From: Atopobiaceae bacterium
GTDB lineage: Bacteria; Actinomycetota; Coriobacteriia; Coriobacteriales; Atopobiaceae
DNA length: 64,000 nt
Reading direction: 5' to 3'
Assembly: GCA_017513965.1 (NCBI GenBank)
Contig: JAFWMI010000093.1
Span: 1 to 64,000, forward strand
The notes beneath the pieces are model-generated. The model worked only from the letters and a program-made list of their open reading frames with translations. It ran no database searches and was not told the DNA's origin. The translations under genes were made by a program, and so were the position numbers. The stretch's first letter is position 1. Each line of letters begins with the position of its first letter. Below, piece by piece: positions 19,605-22,783 of this stretch.

Positions 19605-20285
19605 ATGAGACACTCAACCAAGACTATAACTGCGATGACCCTCGCGCTGTCGCTTGCGATACCGTTGGCGGCATGCGGAGGACAGACGACACAAAACGGG
19701 GATTCGGTACCGGTGGCAAGCGAGCAAACAAACGCAACGACAGCTTCCATAGACGTCTCGGCCTGGAAGACCTTTGGCGATGCGTTGGCAGCCAAGTCTG
19801 AGGATGGTACCAGCACCGCAGCTTGGGACGAGCATCACTATGTAACCGTATTCCAGGCTGGAGACGCGACGGTGCGCGTAGTGGTTAAGATGACCCCCGA
19901 GGTCTATGCAAAGATAGCCGATTTGGATGCCTCAAAGGACGACTACGAAAAGAAGTTTGCCGAGGTGGTTGGTGGCCTCGAGCTGGAGAGCGCTGAGGAC
20001 ATTACGGGTGACCAGATTCCCCAGGATCAGCTCGACGCGCATGTGGGCAAGACGGGGCAAGACCTCCTCGATGCGGGCTTTACGTTCCAGAGCTACTACA
20101 TGAATGGTGGCGAGGAGACGGGTGCCACGATGCAAAAAGGTTACTTCGCCTACAACGTAACGTTTGAGACGACCGTGGACGAAGACAAAACCGAGGACGA
20201 GGGCGAGGCCATAAAGGGTGCGACCATTACGGCGATGGAGTGTGCCGGCGGCGCGGACTCGGCGGTAGATATTTCAGCGCTCTAG
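19605..20285 (+). CDS. Lipoprotein of unknown function, copy 2
   Basis: A 226-residue paralogue of the lipoprotein at 10378. The signal peptide ends at PLAAC with Cys24; the mature part has VSAWKTFGDALAAKSEDG, RVVVKMTPEVYAKIADLD and a DEGEAIKGATITAMECAGG end. Identity with copy 1 is high over the entire mature domain. The ribosome binding site (GAAGGGAG) and upstream bases are conserved. The function is unknown. The shared nikR neighbour suggests that both derive from duplication of a nikR-lipoprotein segment; the AIM24 gene between them at the first locus is absent here. Confidence 0.85.
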   Translation: MRHSTKTITAMTLALSLAIPLAACGGQTTQNGDSVPVASEQTNATTASIDVSAWKTFGDALAAKSEDGTSTAAWDEHHYVTVFQAGDATVRVVVKMTPEVYAKIADLDASKDDYEKKFAEVVGGLELESAEDITGDQIPQDQLDAHVGKTGQDLLDAGFTFQSYYMNGGEETGATMQKGYFAYNVTFETTVDEDKTEDEGEAIKGATITAMECAGGADSAVDISAL

Positions 20286-20667: not shown

Positions 20668-20862
20668 CTTTAGTGAGAACTTCGTACGAAGTTGCCGAGG
20701 GCGGGCATATCCCTCACTTCTCATGAGTCTAACGCTCAGTGTCTGAGGCGGCAGCTATGCGCCATCAACAAGCGCTTAGTGCTACAATATATCAGTTATT
20801 GTCTTGCTTGCATGAGGCGGCAAGAGGACGAAGGCGCGAAGTGCGCGGGAAAGGAGAAGAAG

Positions 20863-20908
20863 ATGGGCAAAGTGCTGAGGGGGGGGGTCGCTCAGACGCG
20901 CGTTTAGC
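20863..20908 (+). promoter_or_regulatory. Translation start and 9-G run controlling the frame of the next gene
   Basis: An ATG at 20863 has an ideal ribosome binding site (AAAGGAG, six bases upstream). It begins a signal-peptide N-region, MGKVLRGG, but a run of nine G (20879-20887) puts it out of frame with the rest, stopping at 20907. With eight G the frame reads on as SLRRAFSVMLGAVLAFAILP, a complete signal peptide. The run is thus a candidate slipped-strand switch. Confidence 0.7.
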
Positions 20909-22783
20909 GTGATGCTGGGCGCCGTTCTCGCGTTCGCCATACTGCCAGGGATGGCATTGGCGGGGGAGAATGAACGCGTCGTTGAGGGGATTGGCGTGAG
21001 CGCGATAAGTGGCCCCTCAAATTTGGCTGCGTGGGAGTACGTGTACTTCGGCACCTACGACGGCCAGCCGGTTCGGTATCGCGTACTTGCGAGTGACGAA
21101 GTGTACGGCAACACCGTCGGTTCGTCGTTGCTGCTCGACAGCGACAAGGCCATTAAGAAGATGGCGTTCAAGGCGGATGGTTCAACCGATCAGTGGGCTG
21201 AGAGTGACGCACGCACGTGGCTGAACGGGGAATTCCTGAACTCGAGCTTTACCGATGTAGAAAACCATGCGATTCTGGCTAGCAAGAAGGACGCGGAAGC
21301 CAACATCGATCTTGGGGAAGGGTATTTGGGTACCGACGCCGCGGTTGACGACAAGGTGTTCTTGCTGGGTGTGCAAGAACTCGTAGAGAGATATGGCTAT
21401 CTGGGCAACAACGATAACGATAACGCGATCACCTTCAACAAGGAGTCTGTCGGCGATGACGGCAAGTGGCTCCTGCGCTCCTCGGTCAAGGACCCTGATT
21501 ACCCAAATGATAAGACGGCTCTAGGCTGGCAGAACAGCTGGGGAGGAGGAGTCGGTCTGGTGCAGCCGAATGCCGATGACTGGGCTGTCGCACCAGCCCT
21601 GAACGTTGGCACCGACTCGGTGGTGTATACCACGAAAGTAAAAGGCAGCGATGCCATCGAGCACTCGCTGACGCTTCTCGACCGTAATATGGCCGTCGAG
21701 GTGACCGGAGAGGTCGTGAAGAAGGGGTCCGTCGTGAGCGTGCCGTATAAGGCTACGGGTGACATTACGCAAGCTTCGGTGGCAGTCGTACGCACGCATG
21801 GCCCGTCAAGCGATCTCCTGCTCTATGCGAAACTGGGTAATGCGGCTGAGGGTACGGCGAGCTTCGAGCTTCCGGCAGACTACGATGCTACTACCGACAA
21901 GGTGTTGCTCTTGGCAGAGCGCATCACCTCAGACGAAAAGCAGACCGACTACGCAAGCCAGCCGGTAGAGATAGAGCCCAAGGACGCAACGTATGGGCTT
22001 TCCGTAACAGCTGATCCGGCAGAGGGTGGTACGGTTGACCCCGTGAATGGCACATACACTGCGGGAACGGCAGTGGCGCTTAAGGCTATCGCAAAGAGTG
22101 GCTACACCTTCTTAAACTGGGAGGTTACCTCTGGCGATGCTACGATTGCCGACGTGAAGGCTGCGAGTACGACGCTCACTATGGGCGAGGCGGATGCTGC
22201 CGTGGTTGCGCATTTTGAAAAAGAGTCCACCACCGTCGCCAAGGCGTCCAGGCCCTCCACGGAGGCCCACGCCGCCAAGGGCACCATCGACGTGAGCTGG
22301 AAGGCCGTCTCCGGCGCCAAGACCTACCAGCTCCAGTGGCGCGCCGCCGGCGGCAAGTGGACCACCAAGACGGTCAAGGGCCGCAAATACACCATCACCG
22401 GCCTCAAGCGCGGAACCCTCTATCAGGTCCGCGTGCGCGGCGCATCCGGCTCGGTGAAGGGCGCCTGGTCCAAAGCCTCCTGCCGCTGGCTGCAGAGCGC
22501 CTCGTCGGTGAGGGCCGCGACCGGCAAGAAGTCCGGCACGCTCAAGGTGAGCTGGGCAAAGGACGCCAAGGCCAACGCTGGCTTCCGCGTGTACGTCTAC
22601 GCGAAGAAGGGCGGCAAGGTCGTGAAGACCGTAGACGTCGCCAAGGGAAAGACGTTCGCCACCATCAAGGGCCTCAAGGCGGGCAAGGCCTACTACGTGC
22701 GCGTGAGGCCGTACCGCAAGGCCTCCGGCACCACCTACGCCGGTGCCATCAGCGGCTACCGCACCGCCAAGGCCGCCAAGTAG
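20909..22783 (+). CDS. Secreted or surface protein with DUF6273-like, InlB-type repeat and two FN3 domains
   Basis: As called from GTG 20909 the product is 624 residues. Residues 1-20 are the hydrophobic half of a signal peptide (see the G run at 20879). Residues 25-250 resemble DUF6273 (YVYFGTYDGQPVRYRVL, ARTWLNGEFLNSSF, NSWGGGVGLVQPN). Residues 365-435 are a divergent InlB B-type repeat (DPVNGTYTAGTAVALKAIAK). Residues 440-624 are two fibronectin type III modules rich in Lys, with SWKAVSGAKTYQLQW and GTLYQVRVRG. The last module block uses almost only G or C in third positions, unlike the front. There is no sorting signal, so the Lys-rich end may bind the cell wall by charge. Confidence 0.75.
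   Translation: MMLGAVLAFAILPGMALAGENERVVEGIGVSAISGPSNLAAWEYVYFGTYDGQPVRYRVLASDEVYGNTVGSSLLLDSDKAIKKMAFKADGSTDQWAESDARTWLNGEFLNSSFTDVENHAILASKKDAEANIDLGEGYLGTDAAVDDKVFLLGVQELVERYGYLGNNDNDNAITFNKESVGDDGKWLLRSSVKDPDYPNDKTALGWQNSWGGGVGLVQPNADDWAVAPALNVGTDSVVYTTKVKGSDAIEHSLTLLDRNMAVEVTGEVVKKGSVVSVPYKATGDITQASVAVVRTHGPSSDLLLYAKLGNAAEGTASFELPADYDATTDKVLLLAERITSDEKQTDYASQPVEIEPKDATYGLSVTADPAEGGTVDPVNGTYTAGTAVALKAIAKSGYTFLNWEVTSGDATIADVKAASTTLTMGEADAAVVAHFEKESTTVAKASRPSTEAHAAKGTIDVSWKAVSGAKTYQLQWRAAGGKWTTKTVKGRKYTITGLKRGTLYQVRVRGASGSVKGAWSKASCRWLQSASSVRAATGKKSGTLKVSWAKDAKANAGFRVYVYAKKGGKVVKTVDVAKGKTFATIKGLKAGKAYYVRVRPYRKASGTTYAGAISGYRTAKAAK

Follow-up and report, generated by a model that had tools for sequence, protein, structure and literature searches.

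A nine-G tract in the signal-peptide region of an Atopobiaceae surface-protein gene: a very probable slipped-strand switch of a kind that recurs in Coriobacteriia

The start region and the encoded protein

The window, that is, the whole stretch of 64,000 nucleotides from an Atopobiaceae bacterium that was analysed, contains a surface-protein gene that stands alone, as a separate ORF on the + strand stops at 20285 and the downstream neighbour is a HipA-like gene on the opposite strand. Between about 20330 and 20690 we read what looks like the remnant of an ATPase gene, CFEDTTAFKLFMGDTGLL...GMVMENAVAKVVRS, with stops and frameshifts. The features of the gene are as follows.

20853–20856, + strand: Shine–Dalgarno-like GGAG, 6 nt 5' of the ATG (read from the sequence and also found as a pattern match)
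20863–20865, + strand: ATG at which the signal peptide starts, with MGKVL as n-region (from the sequence)
20879–20887, + strand: G9 tract in the signal-peptide n-region (from the sequence; putative slippage site)
20888–20962, + strand: signal-peptide residues after the tract, read in the body frame, SLRRAFSVMLGAVLAFAILPGMALA (cleavage site predicted from the ALA motif)
20888–22783, + strand: body reading frame of 631 codons plus stop, surface protein with DUF6273, an InlB-type B-repeat (Flg_new_2) and two fibronectin type III domains
20905–20907, + strand: TAG closing the ATG frame as written (from the translation; OFF product of 14 residues)
20909–20914, + strand: GTG and ATG fallback starts, lacking a ribosome-binding site or basic n-region (from the ORF list and the sequence)

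The tract is preceded by A 20878 and followed by T 20888, and the sequence together with its translation confirms what an earlier note had claimed, namely that nine G residues put ATG 20863 out of frame with the body of the gene. As written, the frame of this ATG reads MGKVLRGGVAQTRV and then ends at TAG 20905–20907. The good ribosome-binding site ascribed to this ATG is indeed present in the form of GGAG, and the signal peptide expected beyond the tract in the body frame is there as well: SLRRAFSVMLGAVLAFAILPGMALA has the residues RR, a hydrophobic core and an ALA cleavage motif, with a hydropathy maximum of 2.7 over 11 residues. No sigma-70-type promoter match was found upstream of the gene. 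In the mature part, the fn3, Flg_new_2 and DUF6273 matches all exceed the Pfam cut-offs, so that the protein combines features of Sec export (basic n-region, hydrophobic core and cleavage motif) with adhesin-type domains. It is predicted to be secreted and is probably adhesin-like, with a presumptive adhesive role.

A TGA at 20876–20878, directly 5' of the tract, closes the body frame, and the earliest possible starts in that frame are therefore GTG 20909 and ATG 20912, in keeping with the earlier note, which had named the GTG. These are the sole in-frame starts as written, and translation might conceivably begin there, with the G tract acting as a 5'UTR element that tunes expression. However, reading of the sequence found no Shine–Dalgarno-like sequence before either codon, neither is followed by a basic n-region, and in relatives the in-frame tracts connect an upstream ribosome-binding site and ATG to the body, so that we consider this explanation highly improbable. 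As written, the window gene is in the OFF state.

Rarity of the tract and its recurrence in relatives

Apart from the G9 tract, no homopolymer of any base reaches 8 residues in the window of 64 kb, and the base composition of the window itself leads one to expect about 0.07 G runs of at least 9 on the strand of the tract. The genome of 3.5 Mb has just one further G/C run of at least 9, on another contig. That run, a G10 (L002 1236–1245; G000:C268), falls towards the 3' end of a gene for a phage-type DNA methyltransferase.

To place the tract among relatives, all G runs of at least 8 were listed in 16 genomes of the genus and most of the runs not at gaps were read, long G runs beside scaffold gaps being left out; the compared genomes were sampled at one per species, many as fragmented assemblies, and their genus and family labels are our own assignments. 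The same order of ribosome-binding site, ATG, basic residues, G8–G11 and hydrophobic core was found ahead of other surface proteins. Within the genus, tracts lie right behind the ribosome-binding site and ATG, inside the signal peptide, at G005:C189 (G10), G003:C44 (G9), G005:C14 (G10), G010:C1 (G8), G008:C15 (G9) and G007:C351 (G10). The first of these, in a secreted ChW protein of a congener (L005/L200), reads ATGAGAAAACAACTGTTC-G10-TCGCTCAGGCG; its tract has the same position as that of the window, is out of frame, and has a near-identical 3' flank. G005 and G006 had been considered as hypermutable genomes on account of G runs of at least 12, but this was rejected because the runs mostly adjoin N stretches and are scaffold artefacts. 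A search of named genomes with the exact motif GGGGGGGGTCGCTCAG gave matches mostly in unrelated organisms, one match being G005 itself.

In the family, the pattern RBS-ATG-(4 to 30)-G8 was present in 45 of 140 genomes, compared with 12 of 140 for the same pattern reversed, which served as the control and for which genomes were counted by hand (Fisher p about 1e-6). After subtraction of genomes holding only a conserved non-coding element, described below, the figures were 37 and 12 (p about 1e-4), and the C8 version of the pattern was not enriched in these 140 genomes (19, compared with 21 reversed). Across the class, the G9 version occurred in 111 of 398 genomes and the reversed pattern in about 50 (hand count).

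These surveys bear on the possibility that the gene is really stable and in frame, with the ninth G introduced by mistake during sequencing or assembly. Homopolymer miscounts can occur in short-read assemblies, runs of G12 or longer at scaffold gaps in two relatives look artefactual, and the assembly of the window genome is in 323 contigs with 7% contamination. Yet the layout is found in independent genomes, including assemblies with large contigs, and is out of frame in two-thirds of cases, for which miscalls of G9–G11 alone are an unlikely source; the enrichment is limited to G after a ribosome-binding site and ATG; and a count off by one would still leave a slippage-prone, switch-like tract. 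The earlier note had held out homopolymer error as an alternative giving the same picture, but recurrence in independent genomes and the G-specific enrichment now make it very unlikely.

A search of 15 congeners yielded no orthologue of the window gene. The closest homologues of its mature protein (L206 and L207, about 33% identity), which match its DUF6273 region, carry ordinary signal peptides that lack a tract, and L203, a paralogous surface protein with a signal peptide of its own, has no tract either, so that the Gly residues are not required for export. The earlier note had proposed that relatives with no tract and a different start would speak against a switch; L206 and L207 correspond to that description in part, but they are other loci, not orthologues.

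ON and OFF states among the tract-bearing genes

In total, 23 signal-peptide genes with this tract layout were collected from 18 genomes, 17 in the family and another 6 elsewhere in the class; their starts were assigned by pattern, and some ATG assignments may be wrong (G005:C14 has a long open frame upstream of its assigned ATG). In seven of the 23 the tract keeps the frame and in 16 it does not, a proportion that does not differ from one-third and is as expected of a freely slipping tract, and both OFF frame classes are represented. If the tract consisted of stable codons, the in-frame state would be expected nearly always.

Two pairs of orthologues are more direct. G005:C14 (G10, OFF) and G010:C1 (G8, ON) are almost identical from 120 bases 5' of the tract to about 130 bases 3' of it, and the tract is the only length change around the start. 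The tract is likewise the only such change between G198:C5 (G10, OFF) and G351:C1 (G9, ON), which resemble each other upstream and along the signal peptide. These two pairs are the strongest evidence for a switch.

These data also bear on the possibility of decay, in which a frameshift would have disrupted the signal peptide and left the window gene a pseudogene. The gene is out of frame as written and the apparent ATPase-gene remnant lies just upstream, but the 631-codon body frame is open, its domains are intact and the start region is well kept, while in related genes, too, the frame change sits at the G tract. We therefore find decay scarcely credible.

Long homopolymers can provoke transcriptional slippage and ribosomal frameshifting. 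Programmed slippage at the RNA level would yield some in-frame protein from every template, tuning its level, and would account for the persistence of out-of-frame genes; it is also compatible with slippage of the DNA. However, such a mechanism would favour a fixed tract length, whereas orthologues vary in both length and frame and both OFF classes are present, and no conserved stimulatory element was seen in a comparison of L005 with the window, apart from the 3' flank. As the principal explanation, we think RNA-level slippage unlikely.

The tract-bearing genes encode mature proteins that are mostly unrelated to one another and that mostly carry surface- or adhesin-type domains (Pfam), as listed below; some genes of the set had no informative Pfam match.

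VWA with Cna_B: G072
VWA alone: G100, G198, G351
Collagen_bind with Big_8: G087
BspA-type LRR (LRR_5): G088
ChW repeats: G003, G005, G010
MucBP with Listeria-Bacteroides repeats (Flg_new): G049
SpaA: G155
CBM96: G151

The leaders of the window gene and G005:C189 have GGGGGGGGGTCGCTCAGRCG and the next bases in common although their mature proteins differ, which suggests that leaders may be exchanged as modules.

Proposed mechanism and relation to known systems

Since unrelated surface proteins across the class share this arrangement, some with the tract in frame and others not, it is most likely an on/off expression switch that operates by DNA slippage. The window gene itself has a homopolymer of the kind expected of slipped-strand variation, about 8–9 or more residues in the reading frame near the start, and a change in tract length shifts the frame, as seen from frame analysis of the window and from the ON and OFF orthologues of related genes. 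We therefore regard the G9 tract as very probably a slipped-strand phase-variation switch, one of a set in Coriobacteriia surface-protein genes. This reading, already put forward in the earlier note, has gained support from the recurrent position of the tract in many secreted proteins that are unrelated to one another, in the genus, the family and the class alike, from an ON to OFF ratio near 1:2, and from differences in tract length between orthologue pairs of related genes. Our current working hypothesis is that slipped-strand mispairing during replication would lengthen or shorten the G tract in the signal-peptide n-region. In one length class of three, translation from the well-initiated ATG would run on into the hydrophobic core and the mature protein, giving the ON state with a full, exported surface protein, and in the other two it would end in a short peptide, giving the OFF state, to which slippage of RNA may add some leak. 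We infer that switching would be reversible within a population, with loss of the protein in OFF cells.

In Neisseria, the G tract of pilC1 and pilC2 sits in the region coding for the signal peptide. The likeness extends to a G tract in the frame of an adhesion-related protein with ON and OFF set by frame, whereas the protein and phylum are different and phase variation is experimentally established in Neisseria; the pilC tract is of G9–20 (PMC5953494). Closer in phylogeny, the sortase-dependent pilus genes bbr_0113 and bbr_1889 of Bifidobacterium breve, also an actinobacterial gut commensal, have intragenic G10–G11 tracts in genes for a surface structure, which turn ON and OFF by replication slippage; whether two ORFs fuse depends on tract length, and enrichment of the ON lengths was seen in mice (PMC9187656). 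In contrast to these pilus operons, for which slippage was measured, the Coriobacteriia genes are assorted single surface proteins with the tract in the signal-peptide n-region, and slippage is deduced from sequences. In Gardnerella (Bifidobacteriaceae), tracts of at least 8 vary between colonies, with lengths of 9 and 10 in colonies of one strain, and lie in genes with InlB B-repeats, a type of repeat also present in the window protein, LPXTG and other surface motifs; unlike that of the window, most of those tracts are upstream of ORFs (PMC11287997). The poly-G slipped-strand mechanism is thus already known, including in the actinobacterial Bifidobacterium and Gardnerella, but its repeated use in signal peptides of Coriobacteriia appears to be new; open-access papers, when searched, gave no account of phase variation by slippage in Coriobacteriia, which supports novelty only weakly. 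Bacteria of this class are common in the gut, and if our reading is right, clonal populations would be mosaics for surface proteins, gene callers would mis-start or split such genes, and strain comparisons of surface proteins would require tract-aware sequencing.

Other start-proximal tracts

A broader proposal, to which we give an even chance, is that Coriobacteriia have an extensive poly-G phasome in which tracts within signal peptides would switch surface proteins and other start-proximal tracts would act on pilins, BREX (BrxA), type III methyltransferases and c-di-GMP enzymes, and in which leader and tract (a G run and then TCGCTC) may move as a module between mature surface proteins in Atopobiaceae-like genomes.

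Several further tracts were noticed. Flp/Tad-type pilin-like leaders with G10–G11 tracts occur at L242 and L243 (G371) and L245 (G224), and L242 has a DUF6273 domain, as does the window protein. BrxA (BREX) genes L244 (G371:C1:902900-905000) and L236 (G397:C12:109000-111200) have a G9–G10 tract a few codons past the start, and one genus has this same BrxA leader sequence in at least seven of its genomes; phase-variable BREX defence is possible. A type III DNA methyltransferase gene, L248 (G347:C1:945900-948100), has a G9 tract at its start and is out of frame as assembled, making it a possible phasevarion. In two species of one genus, a response regulator-HD-GGDEF protein has a G9 or G10 tract at the start (L246, G187:C4; L247, G306:C5). 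The non-coding element mentioned above, G9–G10 followed by TTCTCCGAGTAGGAG, is conserved in about nine genomes of another genus of the family (L170, L171, L181–L184, L190, L192 and L193); neither a long ORF after it nor an Rfam match was found, and it was excluded from the coding counts. Finally, L098 (G004:C128:22500-25900) has five G8–G9 tracts within 1.8 kb, all on one strand, in DNA of phage-like appearance.
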